From the NCBI GenBank assembly GCA_942159475.1, contig OW804098.1:80097178-80161177 (forward strand): DNA of 64,000 nucleotides. The letters are read 5' to 3'. Source of the DNA: Sthenelais limicola. Its lineage: Eukaryota; Annelida; Polychaeta; Phyllodocida; Sigalionidae. Positions 31,904 through 53,921 of this stretch are shown in pieces; the first letter of the stretch is position 1, and each line of letters opens with the position of its first letter. The position numbers and the translations under genes are program-made. The notes below the pieces were generated by a model, which was given only the letters and a program-made list of their open reading frames with translations, was not told where the DNA came from and made no database searches.

Positions 31904-31946
31904 ATGGCTGCAAATAGTGCTTTGACCGGTGAGGAGTATCCTACAG
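31904..31946 (+). CDS. NLR-like gene exon 1: start codon
   Basis: Starts MAANSALTGEEYPT and ends ACAG|GTGAAC in phase 1. The start is chosen for its strong ACCATGG context. An acceptor-like TTCGCAG at 31863-31869 precedes it with an open frame between, so this may be an internal or UTR-containing exon. Confidence 0.6.
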
Positions 31947-34900
31947 GTGAACCATAATATTATCTGTAATTTACCTAGTTCTTTAATCTCTGATAACCCA
32001 TAGTTGTTATATATATAGTGACTGAATGGCATTTGTATTTCATTAGGCGATATCTATAAATCGATGATACACACAAGGGATAAGGTTCTCAAAGAATTGA
32101 TTTAAGTTCAATCAAATCAATCAATAAGTATGTCAGTCATATAAAGCTTGGTATATGTATGCTATGCAAAGTAAAATGTTTCCAATTAAAGAAAATGAGT
32201 GTTTTAATGCCATTTTGAACCCCTCTGTGGATCTAGGACCTCCTTCGTCGTTTTCCCCTCAGAGAATAGATGCACAGGAAGAGGAGATAAACAGGTAAAA
32301 TAATTTGGATATGAGTATTAATTTACTTCACTAATAATTATAAGCCTCATTCCCTTATCTTAAAGGTGCCTCCAACCCCCCCCCCCCCCCCCCGCCCCCC
32401 CTCTTTTTATTTTGTCACCCTAGCGAAATATATGGAGACGAAGCTAGGCAGTAGATGGACAATAATTATCATGACAAGACGCATAGCAATAAATTATATT
32501 CCGCATATATACTCAGTGGATTTTGAACCTTGATCGTGCACAGATGCAGTGTACTGGTTGCCATCTTTTTTTAAATATATTATTTATGATTTATTTTATT
32601 GAATTGTTTTTATCTTTGCCATGACCTGTTCCCTTTTGTTCCATTGTTTCCCTTGGTCATTTTCATCCTTTGGCTATACCAACTATTAATGTTGTGCATT
32701 AATGTACAGGATCTTGCTATGTGAGGGAGATCACTATGGCATTCTACAAATTGAGGGAAGAGGGAGCTGTGCATTAGCGGAGGTGAGGAAGGCCTATAAG
32801 CGGCTCTCCTTGTTAATCCACCCGGATAAAAATCCTTTCCACCAAGAAGCAACCGAAGCATTCAGAGGTTGGTTGCATTATACACTTGTGCAATAATCCC
32901 AGTGACCCGAAATGAAATACCTTTAAACTCACATGATATTGACAAATGTTAAGGTTTACTACATGATTAATATATTTGTACATACACAATATAAATACAT
33001 TTTCTTGTAAATAATGGCAAAGGTTTCACCAAATGAGGCACACATTCAGTAGCAAGGATAAGCAGGCAGTGCGAATTGCTTTGAGCTAAATCTAACCTAT
33101 CATGAGTCGATGCATCGGTCACTAGCATTAGGTTTCATCATAAAGTGGGTACCTTATTACTTACAGTTACACCCTGTTCGCTGAAACTCCTGTGATTCTG
33201 AAGCGATTTTTGTTTTTAAAAAGAACTCGTTTGGACAAGAAATCCAGCCAGGGCTACTTCAATTGATTACTTCAATAAAAATGATTTAAATGAATAAAAT
33301 CAATTAACATTATATAAGAGATGAAAATGAAATTTAAAGATAATTAGGCAGGGAGCGAGGAGCGAGAGGGGGAGAGGTGGGATGTTTTGTATGGGGCAAA
33401 ACTGACCAGAAATAACTTTTTTAAAACAAATGTATTTCCTTAAGTCTGAGATATATGATATTCCCACGTTTTGTTGACAATTAATGCCATGATTGAAATG
33501 AGTGCACATAGGTGTTGATTGTAAGGGCCAATCTAAAATCTGGAGGCAGAATCTCAAAATGGAAATAGAAATTTCACTAGGGGGTACAGAATGTTTGAGG
33601 GTGGCATCCACCATGCATTGTTGTCACCCCATGCAGAATCACATCGAATGATGATTCAGATGATGAATTATTTTTATTTGTTTTACTTAAATTCAAAAAC
33701 CTTTTGATCCATTTCATGACAGTATATTCAATTTTACATGGGAAGCAATAGATGGGTGACTTGATACCAGAAACCCAAGCTACAAACATTTGTAATAGTA
33801 CGTAAGTAGGAGGTTTTTTAATTGAACTGATAATGGGGATGTGCTTTGTAATTGTTATGAATTCATACAAATATGTGTTTAACTCTATCAATAGACGGTT
33901 TTTGCACAGTTGTGGGGCACATTTGCACGGGGTATATTTCCTGGGTATATTTTAGATAATATTCTATACAGAAATACCTCCATTTCAACATAAAATATCT
34001 CCTGGTTACAGTGACGTGACTCAGCGCATGCAGGAGTTTGTCCATGCATTTTCTAGTACCACACTACCGAGGGGTGAAATAATCATCTACACTCTATAGT
34101 GTCTGTGATGGTAAAATCTGACTTCATGGCGATATGAATGTAATGCCATGTCAACACCACAATATCGCCAAGGCAATTGAATGTTGTGAAAAAAGGAGCT
34201 CGGCCCTGGGGAGGGGTTGACGAGGTTAAGGTAGACTAAAAGGTATATGTCGCATATTTGCTTTGACGGACCAGTTTGACTGTGCATCAAGAAATAGCGC
34301 CAGAACACAAAATGTTATCATTTTTTTAACATGTTGGCGTGTGTAATTTTTAAGTCTTAACTCCCGGGATTTAAGACTTTTGCTCATGCCTGTATCCATT
34401 AGAGCGTTCTTTCTGGTTGCGGCTAAGACCAATGGGATAAGGGAGAATAAATTGCCTTGGGGAAGAGGCTGGGTTCTTTGTGTGCATTGGGTATTCAACC
34501 TCAACTTTGGGGAACAGCCGGCAAAAAAGATATATATTGGGTCTACCGGGGAGTAGACTCAAAGAGAGCTGTACACACACAAGTGCATGCTTATGAACTG
34601 GTATACATGCATGCTTATACACTGTGCATGCTTATGAACTGAATATGGATCGTTTTGAGAGATATTGCCTCAGACTCTTTACACTTGCATTATGGATTCA
34701 TGTATCGTGGAACATCACATTGGTTTGCTGTCGATATAATAATACCCAACCAAATCTGTCTACATACAAGCTCAGCCTTCGTTTCTCATTAGCCTTCGTT
34801 TCTCATTACCTGGCTCTACCTGAGGAGCTAGAAGATCGAAGCACGTACGGTACATAACGCCAGGGAAAATATCTTAAACAGTAGTTGACGCTTCTCAAGA

Positions 34901-37900
34901 AGAGTTCCCCCACTAGATCAATTAATCATACTATTAATTAAGATCCCTCGAAGGCGCAGATAAAAAAACGTAATTATTAAAGAACTACAGCATGTTGAGT
35001 CAAGTGGTTGCTATCAATAGGATAGGAATTCCTTGGTTTGTCCCAACATGTCAGTTTTCTTCAGAGTTATTTCCAAAAGTCTTGATAAAGTAACATTTAA
35101 TCGGCCATCTTGGATTTTCTCAGCATAATTATAGTATGCACGTGGTATCCAACCTGAAGATAATCAGTGTTGGTCAGGCTAACAATCCATGGTGGATGAC
35201 ACCCTCTATCATTCCGTCTGACTACCGCTGACAACATGCCTAGAGAAACTGACTCTCCCCTCCATTCTTCTCCACTCAGTTGGCCAATACACCTGTTGAA
35301 AATGTGTATAGAACTTATATATAAGAATCTATTTAATATCTTATGAAAAAAGCCAATTCATCTGCTTTAACTTTACCGTAATGCAGCACTATCTGAGGCC
35401 TATCGGCAGATTGCAGGCCCCTTGGAGAGAGACGAGGTGGAAGCTGTGCCAAATGAAGAACTTCATTCAGAAGGTAACCAACTTTTCTTTGTTTTTAGAT
35501 TGAACAATAAAACTCCAGTCGAACTTGCCACTCTCGATGATATACATACACTAACTGCTTAAGCAGTTCTTCCAGTTTCAAGTAATCATTTGCATTGTGT
35601 TCATGGGAAAAGATCACAATATAAATGTGACATTAAATGACTCACTGTGAACGTAATAACCTTGTTCTCTACTGAACCTATTTACCATCTTTGTTTCCGG
35701 AAGAGACTGCAATAGAACATTTTATCTAAAATACTTTACTTGCTTCTGCATTGCAGCGGAGGATGTGTTCTCGAGTTTCTTTCCTCAGGGATATCCTTCA
35801 GGTATGTTCTGAAATAACGATAATTGTTTGTAATGAAATAGAATTTCCTATTTCTATTTTATAAACCAAAGTGTAATGCGCGAATGAGCTATCAATAAAA
35901 GTATCTTATAGGTGCTATATAACTGTTAGCCCTCGAGGGGCTAAACATGCTAAAATCCTGAAGGTGTGAGGAGCCACGCGGCCAAGAATTAAGACTCACT
36001 CTCAGACTTGGAAGTTTGGCATTGCTTTTGATTTCCAAGAATTATTTTCCAAAATTCGCATTGTTACAAGCCATGGGACCACTCCTTCCCATGACAAAGA
36101 AGAGTAATTGAACAGCTCTTTCTCGCGCCCTCTAGAGTGGGCTTGTGATATCTCGTAAAGGATATAAATATTTGTTTATACTTCAATAATCTTCAAACTA
36201 CAAAAATACATCTTCAAACAATATGACATACTTAGAAAGCAAAATATATCATGTTTCTATCATCATCAATTTAGAAAAGTTATATTATGACAACTTTAAA
36301 TAAATCCTTCAATACTCCGTCCCTCCTAGCCCCCCCCCCCCCCCCCCCACGCCCCGCTCAAGCTAAACTTAGAGCCCTGCTAATGCGACCGTCTCGCTAT
36401 GCTACCAAAAATCTCTCAGTGCAAAGGGTGGTCACGTATGTACGCATATATAATAATATGGGGAACTATTCATTCAATCAAATCTCTAGGGAATCTGCGT
36501 GATGAACGGATCATTCTTGAAATTGGCAAGCAGCTGGGATCCGAGTGGTATGAGTTGGCAGTGCGCCTTGGTCATGACTTCTCGCGATTACAGCAATTCA
36601 CAGGGTCTGAGTCCAAGAATTCCCTGCCACTGAGGATGCTGCTCACCTGGAGACAGCGACATGACCTGGATGATGAACTGCTCCTCCGTGCACAACTCAG
36701 GAGAGCCCTGTATGACATTGAAATGCTCGATCTAGCTAATACTGTCGCCAACTCTACAGGTATGTTTTGTTTGCCTACTAGGACCAGCCACTTAAAAGGG
36801 ACAAATATATATATATATGTGTGAAATTGCCAGAAAATGTACAGTTCATCTTCACCAATCCTGTTAAATAACCCAAATTTCAGACGAAAATAAAGTTCAA
36901 AATACAGTTCAACCTAACCAAACAGATTGCTAGAATTGATGCAATGACGAATGTACTCGAATTTACCTAGTTGCAGCCTAATTAAGCAGGATTTACTAAA
37001 TGTGTACAACTGCTAAATGTACATTTTCTGGAAATCTGACCCATATATGTGTGTGTGAAAAAGATGCGGGTAGAACATCCTATGGGTGGACTCAATTTAA
37101 CGATCACTCACAGGCCTTCCTGGGAGACCTCACTTTGCAACAGTAAAAAGCTAGTTGTAACAGCAATGAAAAAAGGACGTACAATTACTATAATTATGTT
37201 ATCGAATTAAATGTGATCTGATGAGGCCTGAATCCGGTTGCTAAGCATTTATGTTTTTTCCATCAATTTATTGGATCGGCCTGATAATTGTTATTCTGAG
37301 GGACGTTTAAACGATAGTTTGCCGATTCTTTATAACATCCTCACTCAATCTTTCCTCTTCAAAGAACCTCACCGCACATGCTAAATATAAGGAATCTGTT
37401 AGATGTATGCAGCTGGAAATTTCTTTTATTTCATGTGGTACTCCGGGCTCCACATGTGGCCTCAATGTGTGGTCACCTCCCCTCTCCCTCTCCCTCCACC
37501 TCTAAATCTCATTGGTTGATGCCTGAGTGAAGTTCATTCAATCAACAATCAAATGCCATGTTTATTTGACTAAATTGCTACAAATATGTGTCAAAGGTGG
37601 GACAATACCAACAGAGTGGAAGGAATATTGTATTTCTCCTTTCTGTAAATCAGGGAATTTACGTATTCTGAATAATCCTAGACCAATCGCCATCGTCCCC
37701 CTGCCTTCAAAATTGATTGAAAATTTCATATGCAAAGCCTTTCAGACACATTTAGACCTAATGGTCACATATTATTCACAATTAATATATATAATGTATG
37801 TTTCGGATATAGCAGCAATGCATAAAACAAATGAACAGGGTTTGCTGCGAAACCCTCATGGTAGCAACCCAGGTTTCACTAGAATATATTGCAAAACTAT

Positions 37901-40900
37901 TGTTATAACGCTAGGTGGCGCAGCGTCCTTATATTCATCGGCAATAAATGACAGTTATAAATATGTTATGTAAACTGTTCCCCCCCCCCCCCCCCCAATT
38001 ACCGGCCTGTTGAACCTATACATGTAGACTGTCCTTCCGATTACAGGCCCACTGAACATAATCTCATGTAAGCTGTTTCCTATCAATTATAGACCCACTG
38101 AACTTATTGTTCACTGACATATACAAACACCTGCACTTACGTTGGAGGGAGCTTGGAGGGAAGCTGGATCTTCGCAAACATGACCTAGACCACCTGGAGG
38201 CCTCTGTATGGGTCCCTTCTAGTGAGGAAGCCAAGGATAAAATGTTGGAGAAGTGGAGGACCTCGCATGAGCGAGATGAGGACATGATAGTGGCACTTCA
38301 TCAGGTTGGACGATCGGATATTATCGCAATGCTAGGTAGGCTTTCAAGATTTTGTATCATCTTACCGCATGCTGAACAGTGAAAGGGGACATTAGGGAGG
38401 TTTTGATTCATTAATTATGGATAATCTTTATATCCTGTTACTGTGTAGCAAATAAAACGCAGGCTTGGGGGACAGGAGTTTTGATCCAGGAAAGCATGTT
38501 GAATAGCATAGGTTACAGGATAAATAACGTTGTTCAATTCATAACTCCAAAGTTCTATGCTAATTTACCTACTTCAGGTTACAGGTCCTTTATTTAGAAT
38601 GTAGAAATTTAATTTTCAACGTTTACGGTTTAGGTTATACTTAAGTCAGTGTGTTGTACCTTCACCCACTCACTGTTCCAATCTATCTATTCTGACTACT
38701 TTATAAGTCGCATATTTTAAATGTAAAGACTATAAATGCTGGCTTTCCAGGACTCTGAATCATGCTAATAGTCCAGTAGACAAACCCCCAAATATGGAGG
38801 AAGCGTGACTTGGAGTACTACTACGATTTTTATAAGGGCTATTATTGCGTTCAATACATCGTTTCAAGAAATATTGTTCCAGTGGCTTCTTGCTAGCAAA
38901 ATTGGATAACATAAGTTGAATTCACTTCAATAAATATAAGTTCCCAATCCCGCACAATCAGCTAAGTTAACAAAATATTACCATGAAGAAATAATGAATG
39001 TTTAACGTTGGTGTTAGCTTATATATCTTAAGTGTTGTTGTATTTCAGAGGAATCGTGCGGTATTGTTCCATTGAAACCGCTACATAACTCCAACCCGTT
39101 TCCCTCTATACAGTATCAAAAGGTAATATAGGAAAAATGTGTGTTGAATTGACAGTTATAGGTACCACCTCCAGTCACATATACATACTCATGTCATATG
39201 GTGATTATATATGGCGACCTTTTTGGTCATATTATTTGGTCATAATATTCTATATACTGATATCCCAAATATTTGTTGATATCAATTAACGAATTATCAG
39301 TATCTCTAATGTTCAAATTGATATCGATAAACCTCAGTTTGATATCGCTAAATACATTACTGGTATCACAAATCCATATTATCGATATATATGATATAAT
39401 TATGCAAACCAAACTAACGTTTGATATTGACAATTGTAAAACTGATATCGTCAATTATAAAACATATGATTAAATCAAATTTGATTTTAGAGATATAAAT
39501 AAATACATTAACAATATCTTTTGTGATTCCACTGTTAGGTATTAGAGATATTGGTACTAGGATTAATGATAAGTATCAATATATTTAAAGATCTTGATAG
39601 TTCCATTAATGATATCAGTATTTTAGATCGTTGATATCAGGAATATGAAATAGGAATATTAAAATTGGTGGTATAAAGTAATTGTATCTATATAAAACAA
39701 ATAATTGATTTGTTTAATTCAAAATACGTTTGTTGCTCCACACTCTCGATATCAGTATTGAATTCATGACCCAATTGCTCGCCATAATTATAATACAAAT
39801 ACCTATATATTGTATACGATTATTAAGAAAAAAGATTCTGAGCAATTAAAAACCTGAAGCTGATTTATGATATAATTGGCCCAATACCGGAGGTGGAGTG
39901 TTGGTTAAATTAAACTAACAATGGTCGAGGGATGGAAGGAGCTAGGGGGTCTATTTCGTTTAATCAACTAAATATCATATCAATTAAAAAGGGTAAGATT
40001 AATCATGTTTTTTTTTATAAATATGACAAAATCCTTCGAGCAGTCTGTTATAACTTTTCGGGTCTGTTTAGGATGCTACAATATGCCTGCAAAAATGCAG
40101 CAATGGCTCAATCAGTGAACATTTCTATCGTCCTTTTCATCTAACTACACTTAATTAAGTTTGAGAAACATATAAAACCCAATAGTATAGATTCCCTTAC
40201 AAAAAGACTTTCTTAACTGCTCTTGCTTTTGCTAGGATGGCAGAAACAAATTTACTGAGCAGTCGCAATTGCACCAATTTGAGGCTACATGTAGGAAAGG
40301 TTATGGGAAATGAATGAATGATAATAATAATCGAATAAATATTTAGCTGGAGTGGATGAGGCAACCTGAAATAAAGTGGACAGAAGTTGAGTATTTAATT
40401 GAGGTTTGTTTATTGAGGTCCCAATGTTTCAGGTTGCATAAGTATTTCAGCAAGGAGGGTTAATATGATGTTGCTTCAGCTTAGAAATATCACTTTTAAT
40501 AATAGGTCAGCCATCACACAAGTACATGAGATGGGGTTGTATCTGATGTATTGTATTTACCTTATAGGTTGTTGAACCAGACGTTTGCCAATATTGGAGC
40601 TCATTATTGGAGGATCTCATTGTGAATGAAGAGTTGCTTGACATCCTTCAATCAAAAGGGATTCTTCAACCGTACCACCGTACTGTACTTGAGGTTTGTT
40701 TTATCGCCTTATTGAAAACACAACACCCACCAAAATCGTTTGAGTAGATCTCCATTCGAAAAGAAAAATATTCACTAGCTTTAGTATCATAAATACCTGC
40801 TACATGAGTAATTCTGGATGAAATAAAATAATGAACGACCGTTTGCTTTCTTCTGCAATGTGTCAGCAATATATAAAGGTCTAGTTAAATAATACATTCT

Positions 40901-43900
40901 GGTATTAATATATATAAAGCCATTATTTACCCAGTATACTGATTTTTACTAGAGACCTCTTCTGCCACACCTGTTCTTAATTTCGTGTTTTTATTGTTGC
41001 ATTTGATAGAGAATCATAAATTATTTCAGAGATGTCATTTCATTCAATCTTTGTTTACTATACTGGGGTATTCATACAACTGAATTTCCTACAAGCAGGA
41101 AGAATAAGTGGGTTTAATAGTTTGTTGATTTCTAAACAATACCGAAAAGGCATGGCCAGCGATGTAAGCACGTCTGTGATTGGTCAATATAGATATGTTG
41201 TCCTTCCGTTGTGAATTGTAATAACTGAGTTCGAGATGAAGTTGGCCTGAACCACGATAGCGAGGTTTATTCACCATAAACATATACAATTAGATAAAAG
41301 AAAACATTTTGTTCAACAAGTGGACACAACCATCTATCTCGAGTTTAAGAACAACTTTTGTGATTCAATGGCTCTTGTTAAAACTTAATTTTGCATCCAA
41401 CCAGTGGCCACAGGTCACTCATTGGATACAAAATAAAGTGTTAACTTGAGCTGTTTAATCACACAAACAGTTTTAACTTCTCAATCAGTTCTATCTAATT
41501 ATTAAAAAATATGGTATTGGGTAACCAAAGTATCACATGAAGATTAAAATTATATCTAATTCATATAATTTGTAGGGATGCGACCCCAAAACAAAAGTAT
41601 CAAGGCTGGTTGAATTTCTTCTACGTGACTCAAGAAAAATGTTTAAAGAGACAGTGGAATCCTTCATGCGCGCTAATCAGTATGGCCCAGCTAACATGCT
41701 CCTTCAAATTGGTCAAATGTCATGGGAGTCACCAACAGTTGGAAATATTGCTCCTCGGCTTGATGAAGGTAACTTTCTTTATACTGTCGCTCACTTTATC
41801 TTTCCGTCATGCCCTTCTCTTGCTCTCACTGTACCACTTATCTTTCCTTGTTTCTCTCCTTCCCTTTCATTTTCTCTGTCCCTCTTTCTGGCTGTCCCTC
41901 TTTCTTGCGCGCTCTCTCTCTCCCTTTCTCTTCCTTTCTCTCAATCCCTCTCTGTGTTTCTCTCTAACTGTGTCCGCCATTCTTCATTTGTCTATTTGCC
42001 TCTATCAATCTGTACTTCTATACAATCAGATACCAACATTGTTGAAACTCTGAGGCCACCAGCTGTTCTGTATTAGTAGCCTTTTGGAAATTGAATTTCG
42101 GAGCTATCTGTCCATGTTTATGCATATTTTCTATTTTCAATCTAGATGAATATCACCTAATTCAGAAAACTCCTGTCAAAACTGTATAAAATGTCTTATT
42201 TACTGACTTTTATTTTCCTGTATTTTAAAGATTTCAAAGACTCGGTCAAGAGGCTTGTGGACAAGAATCTTCACTTTTATAAGACTCAGGACATACTAAA
42301 GAAAGGGGAAGGAGCATCAATGATCTCTGACATGTCTAAACTCTTCACAAAGCTCAAATTGGTAGAGAAAACCAACTGTTCCACAATTAGGTAGTTTATC
42401 AAAATAAGAATTCAAAACGTATTACAATGTAGTTGGACATGATGATCATAATAAGCAAATACACATGCCCTTGTTTTTATTTCCACAGTGTATTCATATA
42501 ATTTCCCTTATATTTGATATCACCACTTGCAGTTACTAATAATCATTTGTAATTAATAACCCATGCAATATTGCCTACGGATTTTATGTATAGACGTTTC
42601 ATTGTAGTAATTCACATAATTTACACTTGTACTTTTGATCTCCACACAATGCCTCAAAAAGTAGTGAATAGTTGTAGGGGTAGTGGAGGTGCATGGTGTC
42701 ATGCATAGCGGTAGAAATGCTAACGATTACACCACCAAGGTTGTCTATTTGATAAGGCTACCACTACCAACTAGCTCAACCACTCAGACCACCACAAACA
42801 TATTTTATTTGTTCGATAAGTTTTACAGAAAGGGGATACCCTTCTAGAATTTAATCCAGGTTACCCCAAAAGAATCCTGCATAAGATATGTTGTGGTATA
42901 TATCTGGTTGATGAATATGTAGTGTGGTAATTAAAGTACTTAGGTATTTCAGTTAAATAAAACTAAATTAGGAGATCCTACCAGTTTATTTACAAATGTT
43001 ACAATTTATTATGTTTCTCTATATGAAAAAATGAATCAAATCAATTACAGTGATCATGCTGAGTCTGGAGAGGAGGTTAACCTGAATCAAGTTCTTGAGA
43101 TGGATACAAAAGCTGTCCTGCTTATGGGAGCAACTGGAGCTGGAAAGTCTTGCCTCATTCTTGAAATTGCTGTCATTGCTGGGAAATGCCTAACAGGGGA
43201 GATTTCATCGCCCCCTGCCATTTTCAGTAACCTGAAAAATGTGGTGTATCTAAGACCACAAGACTGCAAGGAATCATTTGAAAAAACCATTGAGTCTGTG
43301 TTCAAGGACCGATTACAGAAAACTCAAGCGTTTGCTGCCTTACACCACTTTAAGAGTAAACCAACTGAAACTGGAGTGTTTGTCGACTCACTGGATGAAA
43401 TTTCGCACAAAAAAGACCTCATTGTAGAATTGTTCAGACAAATGGATGAAAGGCTTGTCATTTGTGGAGTCCGTACTAACCATCATGTTATTGATCCTTT
43501 AAGAAGCACATATGGCTTGCAAAGGATATTGGTTGAGGGATTCGAGGAACCAGACATTTGTACCTACATAGAAAGGTTCTTCAGTGACAGGTTTGACATT
43601 GTGAAAGAATTTCAAGGAATGGTGAATAAACACAAAAGGTTAAGAGGGCTCTTGTCTAATCCCTTGACTCTCTGTCTCGTCTGTTATCTGGTAAAGAAAG
43701 GCACCCAGAAAGTTAAGGACCTCACAGAAATTACCAAAGTGAAGATCTACTCAAAGGTTGAACAGTTGGCATGTTCACGTGAGAAATTGGACAAAGCAGA
43801 GGCAGAAAAGAACCTCAAACTGGCTCATAGTCATGCACTTATTACCTTGCTGGAAGGAGGTGACTTTCACTACAACGATATGAAGAACAAAGAAATAAAT

Positions 43901-46900
43901 GTGGAAGCATTACCATTTGTGACAATTGAACACGAGGAATATGATGATGATGAAAAGGGTAGGAAAGTGAGATGGCTACACTGGTCATATATTGAATATA
44001 GTGCTGCAAAAGCTCTTGAAGAATGTGATGAACGGGCTAGGAATGCTCAACTGATTTACATAGCTTCACAGACTCATTTGAACCAAGTACTTTTCTTCAT
44101 TATAGAACTCCTACCATTGGAATCACAGATTATAACATCTATTGTCAATGTCATCTTGGCAACACAGTGTCCAATTGAAACTCCGTGGTCCATGCATTGG
44201 CTGTTTGGTAAATGCAACAGTGGTGTGAACCGGCGTTTGACTGAGAGCATGAACTCTATCAAAATCAAAGACCTCATGTCCATGGAAGATTTTCAATACA
44301 GACTTGATCGGATCACCCCATGTGTTAAATGTTGGGATAAATTTGCAATAACTTCATGCACTGAACCACGATCAGATGAGACCTACTTCCGTGGAGGAAA
44401 GGCATCCATCATGAAAGGCAAGCGAGCTCTCCAAAACGCATTGCACTGTATTCATTGCATTGAAAGCGAAGATATTCGAATCGATACTTCCATCAAAACA
44501 TTAGCCCATTTTATCCCAGCAGAGTAAGTATACATGTACATCTATATTATGATAAATATGATGTCAATCCATTTTTTCCCATTCAATCAACTGATTTGGT
44601 AACTAAAAAGTGTAATATATTCATTTTATCTTTATTATTAGGGGCATGAAACTTGAAGTGCCTAACTCGGATAGGGAGGTCGATGTGAGAAAGCCATGTA
44701 AAACCACCCTTCATATCACTGCCAAGAAAATAGAGGACATTTCCGAGACCAGAGCCTTCTGTTTAGCTGGGGACGTCCACTTAAATGAAGTTCATCTGAA
44801 GTTGACAGATACCCCAGCTCAAGAAAGTAAGATGCTACATTCTGGGTGGAAGTCCATTTTCAAAAATCTGACCGAAAATACAAATTCCTTCACAGCTTCT
44901 GGATCAGTGGCAATTGATATTCCAGGGAGTATTGATCTGTTGCTGAGGATTTTACTTGACAATGTTGCACAACTAAATAAACATGGGATTCAAAGTATAA
45001 AGCTTCCTGACTTGAAAGGAAGCTCGGAGTTTATTGGAGAATTTGTGAAGAATCTGAAGAATAACAATTGGGTGCTAAAATCAAGGGACGATTACTCAGC
45101 GTTAGTACTGAAGATGATGCGTAAGCAAACAGAAAATAAAATCATCCTGGGGTGAGTTTGAACTTTATGATAGTAAAGACAATACTCTCATCAACAACTT
45201 GTTTTGCACTTATCATGTGGTGACCAGTGGAATTGCACCTTCAAGGGTGATATTCAATGTAAAGAAATGCAGTAAAAATATTTTCAGATGTGTTTAAAAT
45301 TATTTTGATATTTTGTAAATGTTTGTTATAGAAAATATTTTCATTAAGACTATTCATGTTATTGTGACTAACCATCCACTTTACATCATTTGAGTTTTCC
45401 CTCATTTTCATTTCTCCAGTGTTCCAGACAAGAAGATAACTGTTTGTGTCCCACGCAGTAACAAAGAAGTGAAAATAGTCTCCACAACCCGTGCACAACT
45501 GGTAGAGGCTTCATCACCCCTAGATCCTGTGCTGGCCAACAGTCTAAACCTTCTGACTGAGATATCAAATCTCCACATTGATATCAAACCTGGGGAAAGT
45601 AGCTCAAGCTCCTCGTTAGAGAACCTCACAAGTCACTGGGCATATTTTCTAAAATCTCTGTTGGAAAATGTCAATCATTTGCACAAACAAGGTCAACTGC
45701 ATTTAAATGCAAGTCCATGTGATGTTGAAGCTTTCCTGACCTGTGCTGCTGGTTCTTATGAAGATATAGCTGATGCAGGTTTCAAGAGTGTCCATCTGCC
45801 CCAAGTTGCAGAAGCTCCAAAAGGGTTTGGGAAGTTCCTCAAAACTCTGAAGAACACTGAACATTGGGACACGTCCTACAAAAACAAATGTTATGAACTG
45901 TATTTGCCTTCTGCCAAGTTCAAGGTCGTCTTGAAGTAGGTTTATAGGATATTTTTTAGAATTTTATACTGAGTCATATCTGACTTTAAAATCGTATATA
46001 TATAATACACAAACATACAATACAGTTTTAGACCTGGGTATGTTTGTAAAAGCTACATCAGAATGTTACTGAATATCTGAAAGAACAAAATCAACATAAT
46101 TCTAAATACAATATGTGGGAAATATGAAAGGGAATATCAGTAAAGTTTTTAATTTTCTTAATTTTTCTCAATAATTTTTCAGGTTAACAAAGCATCCACT
46201 CATGCTGCCAATACCAAACACAGATCGTCATGTGCTAATAGCAATTGAAGAGACCTGCAAATACATCCAAACATTTACAATCACAGATATTACAAAATCC
46301 CATGCTCTGTGTGTTCTGGGAAAGCCGGAGGTATTGAATGTGCGAATATCTGACCAAATCCCAATTAGGGGACCTGGAACATTGGAAACATTATTGATAT
46401 GCATCAAGAATGATTTGGAGAAGTTCTGTGGCCAGAGATTGCTAGAATTGGAATCTCCTACATCAGATTTGGTTAGCTTAATTGATCCTCTTGCCAATTA
46501 TCACCAAATGCTCTTTGACAAAGGCCTAAGAGAAATTACCATATCCGGACCAAAGTTTGGTTCAAACCTTGGTAAAATCTTAAAGGGTCTCATGAAAAAG
46601 AGATGGAAGATTACACGCAACCACCATGGCCATATCAGCGTCAAGTCAATCTATGGCTTGTCGATCTGCCTCACCATGTAAGGACCGAATCTTATAATAT
46701 TATTCTTTCTTTAATCTAGATCCTCACCATTTTAGAGTATTGTAGTGGTGTTCGTTCTATCATTTATAATATAAATATCTTAATTGAAAGGCAGGCTTAT
46801 GTCAAACTAACTGAGATCTTTCCATCAAATTCAGGGTGCATAAGGAGTTTGATTTCGTTCTCCCGAACGGTGGAAGGATATCTATCAAGGCAGAACAGCA

Positions 46901-49900
46901 AAAAAGGCACATCTCTGCACAGAACCCAAGACATTTGAGTCAATACAACACGTTTGGTTTTCTTGGGGAAACTGAACTATTGACATTGGAGTGTTCCAAC
47001 ATCTTCAACGTTGAGAATGAGCATGTCTCTTCAGACATATGGGAGTCAGTGCTGAGGGACATGAAAGATAGCATGATGCCATTCACTGGCGAGGGCAAAA
47101 TTATCTTGAAAACTGCCACAGTAAATCATCTAGAATTCATGAGGGCTGTATGTAAGCAAGAAATGATGGTTGCCACACATGAAGTCAAATCCATTGATTT
47201 GACTCATGTTGCAGCACTGACAAACGATTTTGTCAAATTTCTAAAGAAGCAGCAAGCAAACGACTGGAGATTGCAGTTCTTAGAGAAAGATCTGGAAATA
47301 AACCAAATTGTACTTTGGTCTGGGCACTATCCATTTCACATCAATTTGTGGTATGTTTGATTAGCATTATATTAAAAAAATGATATGATATTACTCAAGT
47401 GTTTGTTTCTCTATAATAAGATAAAATGTAATGCGATGTAATACCCTATCATCTGACAGTGATAATTAATATTCTGTTGTTATGATTCCAGTTTCAAAAC
47501 AGCTCCAATAAATATTGTGGCTTCCCCAGCATCCTGCTATGTCCAGATAAAAGGTACACCAGAGCTACCCATCATACAAGTTGAACATCCAGCAGACATT
47601 TCTTCTTCCGGTGTGATCAATATCTTTGTGGGTTTCAATCAAATTACAATCCATGTCGGCAAACCTGAGAAACAGGCAGCCATCAAGAGAATGGGTTCAC
47701 AGACAAACACTGAAGAGCAGCTAGCCAATGTTCAAACTTCATGGGATAATGCTGTCACAGCGTTTATACTTGATTTGCCTGCACTGCCACAAACTTCGAG
47801 ACGCCTAATGATCAATGCAGAAGAATTTCACATTGCAGCTTTTCTCATGGTGTGTAGTGCAAGGCACCAGGAAATTAGTGCACATGGTTTCCGAGAGATA
47901 GAGCTTGGGCCACTCTCACATGTGACACCAGAGATTGCTTCTGTATTACTCATGATGGAAGAGACGCAATGGAAAATGAGTCTCGAGAGGGAAAGCTGTA
48001 TTGATGTTGTTGGACCAGGGGGTAAATTGCAGATTAAAATCCGGTATGTTCAGCTATCATAATTATGTATGACTTTTCTGATTTTTATCAATTAAGGGGA
48101 AAAGGGGTGGTGAATTTCTTACCAGGGGTCGCATACCTAAACAAATGTAATGGAATGTAAAATAAGTTCATTAATCAAATATGGTTAATGAAAATAAACT
48201 ACATTTTTCATGCATATGGAATATTATCTAGAAGAGTTTTCTAAGTTTTTAAAACCTGAAAGTTGGCACCGAGTCTGAAGGTGCTAATTTGTCATCTCCA
48301 TACTTGGTTTGCAGATTTTCAAGCAGAGCTGTCCAAGTGTTTTCCACTCAGGGTCAACAAACTTGTTCAATCACGGCTAGAGAAAAAAGAATCACAATTG
48401 AAGTTCAAAAACCTGAGGATGTTGCAGGAGTTCAGGCATTCAACTTTATAGGTGTCACTGAGTGCATTGAGTTGAAAACCACTCATGAATACTGTGATAA
48501 GCAAGGCCCAGTCGGCTGGAAAGCTCTACTTGAACACTTCACAAAAAACAAAACACTTCTTACAGGCAAAGGCGAGTTGGTTCTCAGCGTGCCTTCTTCC
48601 CAGTTGAAGGGCTTCTTTCTTGCCCTGCAAGTTGAAGGCATGTGTGAGAGGTTGGGAGGCACTGGCCTGCAGAAAGTGCATGTACCAAATATCATGACCC
48701 TGCTAGCTGATGCATCAGGAGTGCTGAAGGAGATGACCAGTAAGGAGTGGAGAGCCGAATGTCAACATGGCGATCAACTCTATCTCACCCAGGAGTTTGG
48801 CAAAGTTCAAGTGCTTATTGGGTTTGTGGCTATATGATACATTCCAATCATAGGGGCATTTTTATGTTAAAACCTGTGTCAAAACCATTATTGCTTAACA
48901 GGTTTCAAAGGTGAATGCCAGCATTCAATCAAAATAGAAGGAATCATGGATTTGGATTTAGAAAGAACATGGTTGGGGGAATCCGAAAAGCTGATAAAAA
49001 CCATGTCATTGAATTAGTTTTTATTTTAGGGACCATTGAAATAATACTACAACTCCCTACAGGAGTCAATGAAAAAAAAATCTTTTCCCCCATTTTTTCA
49101 GAATTTCAGATGACTGAATCTTGCGATTTCCTTTAAAATCTGCATATACATAGCTGACATATTATTTTTTACACTTAGCACATATTGGGCGTGTTGAAGA
49201 ATCGCACAAACGTAAAGAACACGATCATAGGCATATGAATAGCCTATAACACCTGCTGGGCTATATTCTACGCTGGAGATTGAATTCTTTTTTTTTCGTC
49301 CTTGCAGAGAACGAGTCCTATAAGTTGATTATTATTGATGCCTTATTTTGTCAGTAAAATATACATAATTTCAATAAATAATATAATTGTCCATATGGCC
49401 AATTCCACCAATTTGACAACATTTGGCCCCCTAGACCCCCCCTGGGTACCCAAAAATATTTTTTACATTAATCAGTTGAGTTGTTATTTTTTATCAACCT
49501 CATATATATGCACATTGAACTACCAAGTATGGAACCATTGTGATTATTAGTTATTTTTTTACAGGGGGTTGAAATAAGAAATAAGAAAAAAATGCCAAAA
49601 ATAGCATGTCGTGTGCCGTCACGCTACATGAATAAGAAAATAGAATACAAGTTAATTAAATATTTTCATTGTATTTGCCACCATAGCATATAATACGTAT
49701 AGGAAAAGACTTCGAAATTGATATAAAATGAATAATGACAGTAAATGTTTATAAATTTATGACAAATCAAGCTGGAAAATAAGGTTATATTTTCAGCTTT
49801 ACTTCTTGGCAGTGCCTAACAAAGAGACGTAATATAAATGTAAATAGTGTGGAAAGACATTCGATTTAAAAGGTGAGAACATTTTACCAGACACTAATGT

Positions 49901-52900
49901 TTTTCCCAGTATGGACTTGTGTCTAAAACTTCACATTATATTAATTTTATATACTATGAATACAATATAATAATTTCAGGGAACTCTCATATACAAACAT
50001 TGCTATGGGGAGGAAATGTTGTGTGCCGTCACAAAATGATGGAAAATCATGAAAAATAATGATGATAAGGGCACCGAATAATGGTACATATTTCTACATA
50101 AATGAGTATTTAAATTAGAAATAAATAACACTACTATGCACATAATGTATTGAACTATTTTGTACTTGAAAGGTCTCGACATAAGGGTGATAACAGTTTT
50201 TAGTTTGTGAAAATATTCTAACTAGAAGAAAAGTTAGAGCCAAATAACCATTCAGTAATGGTAATCATAATGGTAGCGGTAAGGCTGACAGGTCATTGAC
50301 CCTCTGCCCATACACATTATATTACTCATTGTATTTAGAATATGTATATTATTTATTACCCTTGTTTTTATCTTTTTAAGTTGATTCGAATATTTGTATT
50401 GATTGTTCCTGTTCTGTTTAAGTATTTAGAGGCAAAATCTTCAAGGATAAAGGTTCTAATATTATGTATATATGTTAGAGAGATATAAGTTCTGACATTA
50501 TGTGACAGCAAATGTGACGTCACACGACACAACGTGACGGCACACGACACAACGTGACGGCAAATTTTTAAAGCATTTTGCCTTAAGAATCATGTAAAAA
50601 CTACTCGGGAATCATGAATTTCAATCTACATAGATTGGTATCAAGCAAAGTCAATAATAAATGTCAAATTTAAAGTTTACTATTAAAGTTGTGCCTTATA
50701 AGACTCTAAAATCCCTAAAATAGGCGTGACGGCACACGACAGGAGCTAGGGTACCAACCACCTTTTGTCACTATGTTATTTCTCTGCTACAATTCAAGAA
50801 AAACTAATATCAATACATTTGATGTTCTATACATATATAATCCCATGCATTTTATCATTATTCATCATAATTTGATATATTTTTATTTTTTTTATTTTTT
50901 TAATCCACCTTAGACACACAACGTGACGGCACACGACATGGGGGGTGCCCCACACAAAAAAAAATCGGTTTTTGATGGCTTTTGGCAAAAAAATAATTTT
51001 TTTTCATTTTTTTTTTACACAGATCATGTTGACGTAACCTACTATCACAACATATAAAAATGTGGTTCCGCAGGTTGGTAGAACCATCCAATCAAAAAAA
51101 AATTCAAATTAATTGTAATTAATTTGATTTAAGCCCATTTTATCACTTTCCACGGTTGGGGGCCATATGTTGTCAAATTGGTGGAATTGGCCATATCTGC
51201 TTTTCTTTAGATGTGGAAATGTTCATTTAATCTGATGGGGATACAGAGCCACTTACTCATGACACTGTCCATCGGTTGTTACATAATACGTTCTTAACAA
51301 ATCAAACATCTCCAACTTCCTTGAACTTTAATGGACATTCAAATTTGAGAATATTACAACAACCAAAAATAAGTCAAACCTCTCTGATTCACTTTAAATG
51401 GGCTTAGCAAAGGGAGAAAATCAAAACAGAAACAGAACTGTTTTTCTTTTTCAAATTAGTCGTTTCTCCGAATTTAAATTTGGAACTTTTTATTTTGATT
51501 GCCTATTTTATAAGACCAAAATAGATAAAGGATTTTTTTTAAAAAAATGTTCACATGTGCAAGTTGTGAGATTACGGAAATGAAACACACAAGAAATTTG
51601 GAAGTTTCTGAAAATTTGTGTTTCACAAAACTTGAGGGAAATTAAGTTTCAGAAAACATAGTAAAAGTTGCTGAAAGTTTGAATTAGAGAAATATCTCCC
51701 AATATTATAGAAAGATTTCTCATTCTGAGGACTCAGCATTCTGGCATTTCAGTGACCTGACGTCTTAGCATCCTGCCGTTTTAACATTCAGTTCTTTTAG
51801 TGTTCAGATGGTTTAGCATTCTGAATTTTAGCATTCATACATTTAAGCGTTAATAATGCAAGGTATATTGGTTGACAGCTGAACCTTAATGCCTCATCAT
51901 TAGTGAATTTAAAAGTTTCAGTTCCATTATACATTGACACATGTTGGATGGATTTTAGTCTCATTATAAATGGTATACTAAATGGTCTATGATCTATATG
52001 GAACATCATGATATTCTTGCATTTTGCTTGCACTAAATATCACACCCAACCTTGCCTTTTATTACATACACATGAATATTTTTCATTATGATTATGAATA
52101 GAATAATAGAAGCAGGATAGGTATTACAGTTTGGGGATAGCTTTTGCCTTGCCAATTTATTTCTGAACCATACCAACATCATAGATTTTAATCGTTAAAC
52201 AGTATTAACAGACTTTAAACAACTTATACTGCATAATTTGTTCTAGTAAGCTTGTCCCTATATTTTGATATTTGTATCTAGTCTGCATTAGCCTTTTCCA
52301 TACTAGAATAACACAAGTAAAAACGGTACATTTGAGTCAATATTACAAATTTTTCTTTTCTGCTAAAAGTGTTTTCACATACATGAATTTAGTACCAGGT
52401 ATAACTTGCACAACTTTACAATGAGTTCATCAGTCTCTTCCATAGAATATAATTGTTCCCAACCTAACAATCATGGTACTCTTGAAGGACATAATAAAAT
52501 CAAATGAAAACATTCCCCTATTATACATCTCTTTATATAAAGAATGTTGCTTCTAAAAACATAGTGGCACCAATAAATTATTAATAGTTATTAAATTGTA
52601 TGATTATAGATTCGAGAATAAAAGGATCGCGCTGGCTGTCCCTGGCACTGATCGCTCCATTGAAATTCTAAGCACCAATGAAGGGACTATGAAAGTAAAA
52701 GTCTCAACTCCCCAAGATGTTGTTGCCACCAACATTTTGAGCTATCTTGGAGCTACAAAATCTCTTGATGTCATCATTGCAACTGAAATTGATTTATCAG
52801 CTCCATCTCTTCACACAGAATGGGAGTCATTCCTTAAAGATCTCCCAAGCAAGATTGCTATCACTTCAGAAGAAAATGTGGTCACTCTAACTCTCACATC

Positions 52901-53921
52901 CTCACTCTTCCACCTAGAAGCCCTGTCAGCGAGTATTTCCATTGAAGATGTACAGAGGGCTCTTTTGGCAGCGGGAATCAATGTTGTAGATGTGGCACCA
53001 CCATATGTGAAACTATTGAATCCTGACCCTGGTTCCTCTGATCATGAATACATCCTAACCCAGCCTGAAAGCAGCGTGAAGATTATTTTCAGGTAGGTGC
53101 CTCTATAATTTGAACGGAACCCTCCAATAATTTTGAGAAATTTACAAACCTTTTCATCAGCAACCAGTCACGACTTATGGCTGCTATTTGATTAGATGTG
53201 CATGACTTCAAATTGATTCAGCAACAACTTCATGAATTTTATTCACAGATGTATCGAGTGGAAGACCAGGCATGTTGTGTGCAAGTCTCAACAGAAGGTA
53301 CTTCTCAGGGTCAATTCTTCTGAAGCCAGAATAGAAGCTGGACAACCACAAGACATCATTGACAGTGGTGCACTCCACAATTTAGGCAGGATGACAAGCA
53401 ATCAACTTGTATTTAAACTAACCGGTAAAGGAGAAGATAAACCACTCGTTGGAGATGCCTGGTCATCATTTTGTGAAGCCCTGGTTCAGTCCTCTACCTA
53501 TGAAAAGGTGATGTTTGACTGTGATGGTCAGAGGTATGACAAGCTTTTACTGGCAATTGCTAATTGCCTGTCATCCCTTCATCTCCAAGGTACAAGGAAT
53601 CTTGTTTTCTACCATGGTGCCTTCAAAGCATCTGATATTTGTAGGTTGATTTCCTGCTTATATCAGCACGGATGGAGTACAAAAGCTTGGTTTCATAAAG
53701 GATATGACAATCTGACAATAAGTGTGAGCAAGGATTCCTCCTTGAATATCCTGATAGAGTTGAACAGTGTGGTTTTAGAAGGGAAAAAGATGAAGAATGG
53801 CACCTTTCAAAGCACTAGGCTAGATTCTTTCACTCTATTTGTTTATTTCTATCTATGCATTCAATTTCTTCTCAAGCTATACAGCTTGATGAATCTTCCA
53901 AGAGTAATCTTCCGAAGATGA
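31904..53921 (+). CDS. NLR-like giant protein: J domain - Death - Death - CARD - NACHT - eight novel repeats
   Basis: Twenty coding exons: 31904-31946, 32237-32294, 32710-32867, 35387-35473, 35757-35801, 36490-36759, 38093-38335, 39049-39122, 40568-40693, 41576-41768, 42231-42390, 43051-44523, 44642-45151, 45420-45935, 46183-46677, 46835-47350, 47492-48043, 48315-48821, 52610-53092, 53249-53921. All borders are GT-AG, all phases agree, and the sum is 7182 nt, giving about 2393 residues. Regions: J about 41-97, Death 131-220 and 221-301, CARD 327-410, linker 433-486, NACHT from 487, repeats 977-2393. NACHT proteins with Death/CARD adaptors are cytosolic pattern sensors that oligomerise and recruit caspase-type effectors. 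That role is inferred here, with the repeat array as sensor and the J domain recruiting Hsp70. ATG 31904 has context ACCATGG. The frame is open upstream to a possible acceptor at 31869, so an upstream exon cannot be excluded. Confidence 0.82.
32237..32294 (+). CDS. NLR-like gene exon 2: low-complexity linker
   Basis: 58 nt, acceptor ATCTAG, donor ACAG|GTAAAA, phase 1 to 2. Encodes GPPSSFSPQRIDAQEEEIN: disordered, acidic at the end. It leads straight into the J domain. Confidence 0.65.
32376..32393 (+). repeat. C homopolymer, 18 bp
   Basis: Uninterrupted C run in intron 2 of the NLR-like gene, followed by G and seven more C. Confidence 0.9.
32710..32867 (+). CDS. NLR-like gene exon 3: J (DnaJ) domain, helices I-III
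   Basis: 158 nt, acceptor TGTACAG, donor AGAG|GTTGGT, phase 2 to 1. Contains HYGILQIEG, EVRKAYKRLSLLIHPDKNP and EATEAFR. The HPD tripeptide that stimulates Hsp70 ATPase activity is intact. The frame runs on to a stop at 32896 if unspliced, but the missing helix IV appears, in phase, in exon 4. Confidence 0.9.
32868..35386 (+). other. Intron 3 of the NLR-like gene
   Basis: 2.5 kb within the J domain, between helices III and IV. Contains short direct duplications (GTGCATGCTTATGAACTG near 34581 and 34625; AGCCTTCGTTTCTCATT twice near 34772). No other gene seen. Confidence 0.6.
35387..35473 (+). CDS. NLR-like gene exon 4: J-domain helix IV and acidic linker
   Basis: 87 nt, acceptor AATGCAG, donor GAAG|GTAACC, phase 1 to 1. 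ALSEAYRQIAG completes the J domain; compare the family's usual 'INEAYEVLSD'. An acidic stretch with no fold signal follows. This exon is the main evidence that the J domain is spliced into a longer protein. Confidence 0.8.
35757..35801 (+). CDS. NLR-like gene exon 5: short linker
   Basis: 45 nt, acceptor CATTGCAG, donor TCAG|GTATGT, phase 1 to 1. Encodes AEDVFSSFFPQGYPS, similar in flavour to exon 2 (SSFSPQ), so the two may be related by duplication. Confidence 0.65.
36330..36348 (+). repeat. C homopolymer, 19 bp
   Basis: Uninterrupted C run about 140 bp upstream of the first Death-domain exon. Confidence 0.9.
36490..36759 (+). CDS. NLR-like gene exon 6: first Death domain
   Basis: 270 nt, acceptor TCTCTAG, donor ACAG|GTATGT, phase 1 to 1. 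Shows the Death-fold pattern: LGSEWYELAVRLG, then a six-helix amphipathic layout with MLLTWRQR and LRRALYDIEMLDLANTV. A symmetric phase 1-1 exon is well suited to exon shuffling. Confidence 0.88.
36830..37031. mobile_element. Short inverted-repeat element (MITE-like), about 200 bp
   Basis: Ends CCAGAAAATGTACA and TGTACATTTTCTGG are exact inverted repeats, with TATATATG-type sequence on both sides. Inner blocks match 7868-8030. It lies in the intron between the two Death domains. Confidence 0.75.
37545..37770 (+). pseudogene. LINE reverse-transcriptase fragment
   Basis: The plus-strand frame contains GGTIPTEWKEYCISPFCKSG and PRPIAIVPLPSKLIENFI, matching the N-terminal part of non-LTR reverse transcriptases (the 'P..WK...I.PI.K.G....N.RPI...P..SK..E' pattern). 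Only this fragment is present. Intron insertion between the two Death exons. Confidence 0.8.
37980..37996 (+). repeat. C homopolymer, 17 bp
   Basis: C run directly before the tandem repeat that ends at the exon 7 acceptor. Confidence 0.9.
37997..38110 (+). repeat. Imperfect tandem repeat spanning the exon 7 splice acceptor
   Basis: Three related units begin ATTACCGGCC, ATTACAGGCCCACTGAAC (about 38040) and TTATAGACCCACTGAAC (about 38087), at about 47-bp spacing. The third contains the acceptor used for the second Death domain; the second contains a similar TTACAG. Confidence 0.75.
38093..38335 (+). CDS. NLR-like gene exon 7: second Death domain
   Basis: 243 nt, acceptor CAATTATAG, donor CTAG|GTAGGC, phase 1 to 1. 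Death-type features: HLRWRELGGKLDL, DHLEAS, KMLEKWRTSHERDED, MIVALHQVGRSDIIAML. It is more divergent from exon 6 than a recent duplicate would be. The acceptor lies in the third unit of an imperfect tandem repeat (37997-38110). Confidence 0.85.
39049..39122 (+). CDS. NLR-like gene exon 8: linker
   Basis: 74 nt, acceptor ATTTCAG, donor AAAAG|GTAATA, phase 1 to 0. Encodes EESCGIVPLKPLHNSNPFPS followed by IQYQK. No recognisable domain. Confidence 0.7.
39245..39760. repeat. GATATC-rich degenerate minisatellite
   Basis: GATAT(C/T) or its complement recurs more than a dozen times, often at 25-35 bp spacing, for example TTGATATCGATAAACC and TTTGATATCGCTAAATAC. It lies in the intron before the CARD exons. 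Confidence 0.65.
40568..40693 (+). CDS. NLR-like gene exon 9: CARD, first half
   Basis: 126 nt, acceptor CCTTATAG, donor GAG|GTTTGT, phase 0 to 0. YWSSLLEDLIVNEELLDIL and SKGILQPYHRTVLE match CARD helices 1-3, including the usual 'L...gil' turn. Confidence 0.82.
41576..41768 (+). CDS. NLR-like gene exon 10: CARD, second half
   Basis: 193 nt, acceptor ATTTGTAG, donor GAAG|GTAACT, phase 0 to 1. KVSRLVEFLLRDSRKMFKE and FMRANQYGPANMLL give CARD helices 4-6. Reading past the donor enters a CT-rich intron tract, and the longer frames there are not real. Confidence 0.82.
41790..42010 (+). repeat. Pyrimidine-rich intron tract
   Basis: Starts about 20 bp after the CARD exon 10 donor. CT-rich with short TCTC runs. 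It produces long spurious frames on the plus strand. Confidence 0.8.
42231..42390 (+). CDS. NLR-like gene exon 11: linker before NACHT
   Basis: 160 nt, acceptor TTTTAAAG, donor TTAG|GTAGTT, phase 1 to 2. Encodes a Lys-rich helical stretch (DFKDSVKRLVDKNLHFYKT). No domain assigned. The final AG joins T of exon 12 as Ser. Confidence 0.7.
43051..44523 (+). CDS. NLR-like gene exon 12: NACHT NTPase domain
   Basis: 1473 nt in one exon, acceptor AATTACAG, donor AGA|GTAAGT, phase 2 to 2. Walker A is GATGAGKS (residues about 512-519). Walker B is VFVDSLDEI (about 595-603), with the extended acidic signature that separates NACHT from ordinary ABC-type ATPases. A later LLSNPLTLCLVCYLVKKG is the typical NACHT helical segment. 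Both nucleotide-binding motifs are intact, so ATP/GTP binding and switch-like oligomerisation are expected from the family. The region after about residue 740 probably holds winged-helix and superhelical parts but was not resolved. Confidence 0.95.
44642..45151 (+). CDS. NLR-like gene exon 13: novel repeat 1
   Basis: 510 nt, phase 2 to 2. Contains VPNSDREVDV at the N-end, GWKSIFKNL mid-way, GIQSIKLPDL, and NNNWVL near the C-end. These mark the repeat pattern shared with exons 14-20. Confidence 0.85.
45420..45935 (+). CDS. NLR-like gene exon 14: novel repeat 2
   Basis: 516 nt, acceptor TTTCTCCAG, donor TTGAA|GTAGGT, phase 2 to 2. Landmarks: HWAYFLKSLLENV, GQLHLNASP, AGFKSVHLPQV, FGKFLKTLK, EHWDT. 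An insertion rich in Ser (KPGESSSSSS) precedes the first Trp. Confidence 0.85.
46183..46677 (+). CDS. NLR-like gene exon 15: novel repeat 3
   Basis: 495 nt, acceptor TTTTTCAG, donor CCAT|GTAAGG, phase 2 to 2. Landmarks: PIPNTDRHVLIAI, LETLLICIKNDL in place of the usual W-x3-FL block (Trp missing), KGLREITISGP, LKGLMKKRWKI. Confidence 0.85.
46835..47350 (+). CDS. NLR-like gene exon 16: novel repeat 4
   Basis: 516 nt, acceptor AAATTCAG, donor TTGTG|GTATGT, phase 2 to 2. Landmarks: VLPNGGRISI, FGFLGETELL, IWESVLRDM, GEGKIILKT, EVKSIDLTHV, NDWRLQ. Confidence 0.85.
47492..48043 (+). CDS. NLR-like gene exon 17: novel repeat 5
   Basis: 552 nt, acceptor GATTCCAG, donor ATCCG|GTATGT, phase 2 to 2. 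Landmarks: SWDNAVTAF, HGFREIELGPL, ETQWKM. It is the longest internal copy, with an insertion after the first beta-rich part. Confidence 0.85.
48315..48821 (+). CDS. NLR-like gene exon 18: novel repeat 6
   Basis: 507 nt, acceptor GTTTGCAG, phase 2 to 2. Landmarks: FNFIGVTECIEL, GWKALLEHF, GKGELVLSVPS, TGLQKVHVPNI, SKEWRAE. The donor that keeps phase is ATTGG|GTTTGT, which is weak. Without splicing the frame ends six codons later at TGA 48835-48837. Confidence 0.75.
49397..51192. mobile_element. Inverted-repeat DNA transposon (non-autonomous) with internal GTGACGGCACACGAC repeats
   Basis: The left end GGCCAATTCCACCAATTTGA (49397) is inverted at the right end, TCAAATTGGTGGAATTGGCC (ending 51192), with pairing over about 34 bp and flanking ATAT on both sides. 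Inside, GTGACGGCACACGAC occurs at 50534, 50726 and 50923, with a variant at 50515 and a truncated copy at about 50554. It appears inverted (GTCGTGTGCCGTCAC) at 49608, with a variant at 50018. No transposase frame. A partial second copy lies at 13310-13490. Confidence 0.85.
51721..51845. repeat. Degenerate tandem GCATTCTG-type repeat
   Basis: Variants of TTTAGCATTCTG recur about every 15-20 bp, for example CAGCATTCTGG, TTAGCATCCTG, TTAACATTCAG, TTAGCATTCTG, TTAGCATTCAT. Old minisatellite within an intron. Confidence 0.6.
52610..53092 (+). CDS. NLR-like gene exon 19: novel repeat 7
   Basis: 483 nt, acceptor GATTATAG, donor TTCAG|GTAGGT, phase 2 to 2. Landmarks: AVPGTDRSIEIL, LSYLGATKSLDV, EWESFLKDLPS, AAGINVVDVAPP. 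The C-terminal Trp of other copies is missing. Confidence 0.83.
53249..53921 (+). CDS. NLR-like gene exon 20: novel repeat 8 and hydrophobic tail
   Basis: 673 nt, acceptor TTATTCACAG, stop TGA 53919-53921. Repeat landmarks: LHNLGRMTSNQLV, AWSSFCEAL, GTRNLVFYHGAF, YQHGWSTK. After the repeat come about 33 residues with a hydrophobic stretch (FTLFVYFYLCIQFLLKLYSL, 53829-53888) and a basic end (VIFRR). A weak donor-like GA|GTTGAA near 53759 would end the exon where the other repeats end, so the tail could be intron read-through. Confidence 0.78.

Follow-up and report, generated by a model that had tools for sequence, protein, structure and literature searches.

Can a single animal gene join a J domain, two Death domains, a CARD, a NACHT ATPase and a long array of repeats, and what would a cell do with the product? 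The question is raised by a locus on Sthenelais limicola chromosome 5 (80,097,178-80,161,177; this whole 64-kb stretch is called the window below), for which an earlier note, made from the letters alone, had proposed such a gene. The genome searched here comprises 1.13 Gb (1,130.6 Mb) in 161 contigs, nine of them large, and the covered part of the published account of the wpSthLimi1.1 assembly gives 1,131.1 Mb, 201 scaffolds and nine chromosomes (PMC10352628). The mitochondrial COX1 of the searched genome shares 94% identity with a record from a Phyllodocida annelid. The reading that I favour, and hold to be somewhat probable, is that of a single gene for an NLR-like intracellular sensor in which a J-Death-Death block has been grafted onto a CARD-NACHT-repeat core, so that the sensor would have its own Hsp70-recruiting module.

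The twenty exons that the earlier note had spliced in phase between positions 31904 and 53921 hold up: on the plus strand they splice to a single open frame, 2,393 residues long, that ends in TGA, all 19 introns are GT-AG, and the stops in the spliced message that the note had named as grounds for giving up the gene were looked for and number zero. A pseudogene is ruled out by the same absence of internal stops across the 20 exons, and chance open frames are ruled out by the 3 to 46 stops that the other frames contain in exons 12-20, where the frame used is the sole open one (in exon 20, up to its stop). Comparison with paralogues set the junction of exons 11 and 12 at 42390/43051, giving 2,393 residues instead of 2,416. 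Toward the two ends of the model, exons 1-2 and the start ATG were placed by open frame and splice sites and found no homology support, with a second in-frame ATG at 32702, just 5' of the exon 3 acceptor; the last 54 residues, beyond the final repeat, likewise follow the reading frame with no homology support, and an AATAAA lies at 54160, beyond the stop. The intron phases are 1-1 for exons 4-7, 1-0 for exon 8, 0-0 and 0-1 for the two CARD exons, 1-2 for exon 11 and 2-2 for exons 12-19 (Table 1).

Table 1. Parts of the gene model, in window positions
Feature	Position	Strand	Basis
Exons 1-2, proposed N-terminus, weakest part of the model	31904-31946, 32237-32294	+	Open frame, splice sites
Exons 3-4, J domain, HPD at 32819-32827	32710-32867, 35387-35473	+	PF00226
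Exon 5, EDVFSSFFPQGYPS, a short motif that separates J from Death 1	35757..35801	+	Paralogues L040, L041
Exon 6, Death domain 1	36490..36759	+	PF00531
Exon 7, Death domain 2	38093..38335	+	PF00531, PDB TNFR1
Exon 8, linker, intron phase changes from 1 to 0	39049..39122	+	Splice phases
Exons 9-10, putative CARD split by a phase-0 intron	40568-40693, 41576-41768	+	Own-genome CARD profile
Exon 11, linker before NACHT (KLFTKLKLV)	42231..42390	+	Counterpart DLAKLYTNLRLV in the C5:3.79 Mb paralogue
Exon 12, NACHT-winged-helix ATPase	43051..44523	+	PF05729, NLRP3 profile match, Walker motifs
Exons 13-20, eight repeat units of ~170 residues, one per exon	44642..53756	+	Alignment A1
Exon 20, C-terminal tail, hydrophobic stretch, up to the stop TGA	53757..53921	+	Reading frame

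The window also holds features that lie outside this protein. Intron 18 contains a 1.8-kb inverted-repeat element (49393..51196) with 39-nt arms that are 97% complementary and with repeated GTGACGGCACACGACA motifs in both orientations, which is probably a non-autonomous DNA transposon lengthening the intron. Matches to zf-RVT at window positions 4452-4790 and at L045 (1.9e-6 and 2.5e-5) are probably retrotransposon remnants. A 360-codon open frame on the minus strand (24357-25436) has an N-terminal hydrophobic segment and no Pfam match, and looks like a type II membrane protein; a weak match to the QRICH1 domain on the plus strand (19064-19453; 4.1e-5, 24.1 bits) falls below the cut-off of 30.8, and Rfam gave no match in the window.

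Within the gene, exons 3-5, when spliced, match PF00226 (DnaJ) in Pfam with E=1.1e-13, the HPD motif of this J domain is intact, its closest relative in the PDB is DNAJB12 (1.5e-9), and the domain is interrupted after ..EAFR by an intron in phase 1. Both HPD and this intron site recur in 18 of the 19 J exons that were fetched from the 25 J-Death loci described below, and HPD is also present in the J domains of the paralogues L039, L040 and L041, of which L040 and L041 share the short motif of exon 5 and L039 was not found to have it. Both Death domains exceed the curated PF00531 cut-off of 22.6 bits, the one in exon 6 with 25.4 bits (1.6e-5) and the one spliced from exons 7-8 with 40.8 bits (2.4e-10), and the latter also matches the Death domain of TNFR1 in the PDB (0.0022).

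The CARD is a subtler case, as the piece gave no match to PF00619 or to any other Pfam family up to E=5, and its sole PDB match up to E=10 is a weak one (E=1.1) to a design on template 1cy5, which I take to be the APAF-1 CARD. When it was scored against a profile of 12 other CARDs from the same genome, it reached 18.6 bits (E 1.4e-4), and the best of 2,000 shuffles reached 9.8. Furthermore, the NACHT relative at C8:80.03 Mb has a two-exon CARD on its 5' side with the same phase-0 intron (E 0.057 and 0.02 for the halves, in a small search set), and the relative at C5:5.27 Mb has the first CARD half on its 5' side (profile E 2.7e-4, again in a small set) with a phase-0 splice site at the same place; the second half was not found there. 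Profile and gene structure thus support the assignment of exons 9-10 as a predicted CARD.

Exon 12 alone matches PF05729 with 8.5e-5 and 22.9 bits, which is below the curated cut-off of 26.7, and this NACHT is absent from the results of the genome-wide Pfam NACHT search. Its family speaks more clearly. A genome search with the exon returned 71 places, among them, besides itself, 39 relatives at 31-36% identity and at least 190 bits. When 18 sequences were aligned (the window's own and 17 same-genome relatives), 16 of them, including that of the window, matched PF05729 at 1e-3, and the best PDB matches of their profile were to NLRP3 (1.2e-5). The 18 share invariant core residues of the Walker A and Walker B motifs (GATGAGKS at 43127-43150 and FVDSLDE within 43373-43399 in the window) and have the winged-helix motif in common. 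The counterpart of the exon 11 linker in the C5:3.79 Mb paralogue lies just 5' of its NACHT and is weak by phmmer (0.58). Across the genome there is a large expansion of NACHT sequences, with 226 merged places from three genome searches, several classes, and some single open frames of more than 1,000 codons.

What follows the ATPase is more difficult to name. A profile of only the eight window units (A1) found a unit within ~1.5 kb 3' of the NACHT at 27 of 29 paralogous loci, several of which are recent copies of one another (the near-identical L030 and L031 both carry the repeat 3' of NACHT), and found none at L011 and L023. With a second alignment (A2; 20 members, four of them window units), Pfam gave four isolated one-member matches, the best with E 0.013 and none convincing, the other four window units had no match at E <= 0.1, and a PDB search with the two profiles gave best E values of 0.083 (A1) and 0.49 (A2), again none convincing. 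No LRR family is among the Pfam matches at E <= 0.1 of the 20 A2 sequences and the four remaining window units, nor are NB-ARC or WD40 among the Pfam matches of the NACHT or repeat sequences, and exon 18, used as a protein database query, found only itself (4 candidates scored). These units, one to an exon, may have grown in number by exon duplication. The J-Death/NACHT receptor family also supplies a large type of sensor repeat for which neither Pfam nor the PDB gave a convincing match by sequence.

Taken together, the order J, Death, Death, CARD, NACHT and repeat array put forward in the earlier note holds up against Pfam and own-genome profiles, and so does its description of a sensor of NLR type that combines three modules of the Death fold with a chaperone module and an array of non-standard kind. 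The Pfam search that it had recommended succeeded in part, recovering DnaJ and both Death domains, placing the single-exon NACHT below its curated cut-off and staying silent on the CARD. The protein combines a NACHT ATPase, in which Walker A, Walker B and the winged helix are present, with an N-terminal Death-fold effector region (two Death domains by Pfam, the CARD by own-genome profile and gene structure); since Pfam showed no C-terminal LRR array at E <= 0.1, I use the term NLR-like and not NLR in the strict sense.

Is this gene one of a kind? Pfam scans of the genome gave 66 J places and 54 Death places, and at 25 of the 66 a Death on the same strand follows within 50 kb downstream, with two distinct Deaths at 14 of these 25; not one of the 66 has a Death upstream or on the opposite strand within that distance. 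Using Pfam Death places alone the count is 18 of 66, compared with a random mean of 0.08 and a maximum of 2 in 2,000 trials, and a query with the window's Death 1 found 29 places, 22 of which (the window's own included) have a J within 50 kb upstream. That all J hits are ordinary DNAJ genes is ruled out by the 25 Death neighbours; the other 41 J places probably include such genes. Of the 25 J-Death loci, 14 are followed by a NACHT no more than 60 kb downstream (11 within 30 kb, five within 4-9 kb), where a uniform null had a mean of 0.24 and a regional null a mean of 1.14 with a maximum of 5 in 2,000, and this count, which used the 226 merged places, falls to seven when the search with the second NACHT class is left out and Pfam and window-exon places alone are used. 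At the other 11 of the 25 no NACHT was detected within 60 kb at the sensitivity used, so the J-Death block may also work without one. Three of the 25 loci also have a same-strand NACHT upstream and two have one on the other strand, as expected from tandem arrays, yet they weaken the pairing of J-Death with NACHT; and because the loci cluster, the J-Death counts are not independent events. Judged by its sequence, the window gene is an especially elaborate member of a genome-wide J-Death(-NACHT) family.

The family has variants. In L039 (C5:1.77 Mb) the order is J-Death-Death-NACHT and the NACHT belongs to a different class (24% identity), which occurs at ten places including L039 itself (68-100% identity), eight of the ten lying no more than 60 kb downstream of a J-Death locus. 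L041-L042 (C4:32.2 Mb) has the same order, its second Death being a weak partial match; its NACHT exon continues into hydrophobic, membrane-like stretches. L040 (C8:43.8 Mb; also L044) keeps J-Death-Death, and no P-loop was seen in its NACHT-like open frame, although an unseen upstream exon could hold one; this relative is possibly a sensor without an ATPase or a regulator of others. At C5:3.79 and C7:114.04 Mb, J and Death accompany the window's own NACHT class, and at C5:3.79 Mb the repeat follows the NACHT and the J exon reads HPE and then diverges, which suggests that J may be dispensable there. The own-genome CARD profile found no CARD in the stretches read at these two places, so the window gene is, to date, the one place where the version with three Death-fold modules has been seen. 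No J or Death match lies within 0.9 Mb of the two CARD-NACHT relatives (C5:5.27 and C8:80.03 Mb). Block (J-Death-Death) and core (NACHT-repeat) thus also occur apart, and because they do and because the intron phases change at the join, the window gene may be described as the former grafted onto a CARD-NACHT-repeat core; a phase-1 block followed by the CARD-NACHT core has the phases that a graft between two modules would leave.

The same separateness can be turned against a single gene, for there may instead be two neighbours, an adaptor of the form J-Death-Death(-CARD) and, downstream of it, a sensor of the form (CARD-)NACHT-repeat, which would act together and be transcribed apart. The CARD-NACHT relatives that stand alone, the 11 J-Death loci with no detected NACHT and the lack of homology support for exons 1-2 all fit such a pair, whereas the frame and phase that stay open through every exon, and the recurrence of the order and strand at 14 of 25 loci with five of them so tightly spaced, speak for continuity, and I consider two genes unlikely, if the least unlikely of the alternatives. 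The earlier note's claim of a single gene is strongly supported by the paralogues, and one mRNA across the whole locus is predicted.

The J domain may also be read in another way. Plant NLRs carry integrated target domains, and the J domain could be an integrated decoy of this sort, luring a pathogen factor directed at Hsp40/Hsp70; a sensor family that is diverse, has expanded in clusters and has gained an additional domain by fusion is in keeping with this, but J sits outermost at the N-terminus beside the signalling domains, is tied to Death domains and not to one sensor type, and conserves the HPD that a pure decoy need not keep, so that a decoy strikes me as rather doubtful, a little more so than two genes. 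One could also question whether the protein is an immune sensor at all, since Death domains and J domains act in development and stress as well, and it could be a housekeeping, chaperone-linked scaffold regulating apoptosis or proteostasis in the worm; a family that is large, clustered and divergent, with NACHT and with back ends that vary, shows instead the usual pattern of immune receptors, and I regard the scaffold as the least probable of the readings, very unlikely indeed.

I therefore return to the NLR-like sensor with a grafted J-Death-Death block. Domain content and order, the frame, the conserved ATPase and HPD residues and the recurrence of the family can be read directly from the DNA; a single transcript, oligomerisation, partners, the use of Hsp70 and an immune role are predicted from them. 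The repeat array would bind a ligand or keep the ATPase closed, a signal would lead the NACHT to exchange its nucleotide and oligomerise, and oligomerisation would cluster the CARD and both Death domains, which could then draw in caspases, adaptors or kinases as CARD/Death partners and lead to cell death or inflammation; the switch and the clustering are proposed because they are established for NLRs and APAF-1. HPD is needed for the stimulation of Hsp70 and, because the motif is conserved, the J domain is proposed to recruit Hsp70 and trigger its ATPase through it, so that the sensor would carry its own chaperone recruiter, which might keep the resting protein switchable or dismantle the active assembly. 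A bolder version is that chaperone occupancy is itself the signal, with J keeping Hsp70 on the resting receptor until misfolded or foreign protein withdraws it and releases Death and CARD for NACHT-driven assembly, in which case the receptor would guard proteostasis directly; this I think quite improbable, hardly above the scaffold. In plants and vertebrates, the chaperones that tune NLRs are separate proteins. If a chaperone recruiter is indeed built into a Death/NACHT receptor, then how Hsp70 sets, senses or resets an NLR becomes a question for point mutations.

How, then, does this gene relate to what is already known? Databases that include UniRef and nr entries gave no match at E <= 1e-3 to residues 1-1000 (6,750 candidates, for which shared 5-residue words and similar length were required) and none at E <= 1e-5 to the 18-sequence NACHT alignment (7,998 candidates sharing most words), and since these entries were searched with no match, it is improbable that they include an annotated relative that is both close and of similar length. 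NLRP3, the best PDB profile match of the window's NACHT class (1.2e-5), differs in that it carries a single PYD, has LRRs and lacks a J domain. The APAF-1 apoptosome is alike in that its STAND ATPase carries a CARD and has a repeat sensor, and differs in having NB-ARC and WD40 repeats in place of NACHT and the window array, and neither J nor Death. J-domain proteins, of which DNAJB12 is nearest in the PDB, have the J fold with HPD in common with the window gene, and none of them is known to have Death, CARD or NACHT as well.

For the fusion as a whole, the claim that this combination had not been described stands as far as the open-access literature searched here goes, where no description of a J-NLR fusion or of J-Death-Death-CARD-NACHT was found. 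In bacteria, the covered part of a report on GAP1-N2 conflict systems places a J domain in a defence system beside Hsp70 genes, with the difference that these are separate proteins and that J is fused to FNIII-repeat proteins and not to Death/NACHT (PMC7159879). Lineage-specific expansions of apoptosis-type architectures are known from marine invertebrates, in an account whose covered part has no match for DnaJ, 'J domain' or annelid (PMC8195603). A metazoan NLR survey records invertebrate NLRs of the CARD and Death types, also from annelids, and the part of it covered here has no counted mention of DnaJ (PMC11508797). It is the animal NLRs of that survey, NLRC and the Death types of sea urchin and amphioxus, that the window gene recalls, with a Death-fold N-terminus, NACHT-winged helix, long C-terminal repeats and marine-invertebrate expansion, and to which it adds J and two Death domains before the CARD, and an array that is not LRR by Pfam (PMC11508797, in the same part). 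The receptor is thus NLR-like with an added J module, and not a new kind of system.
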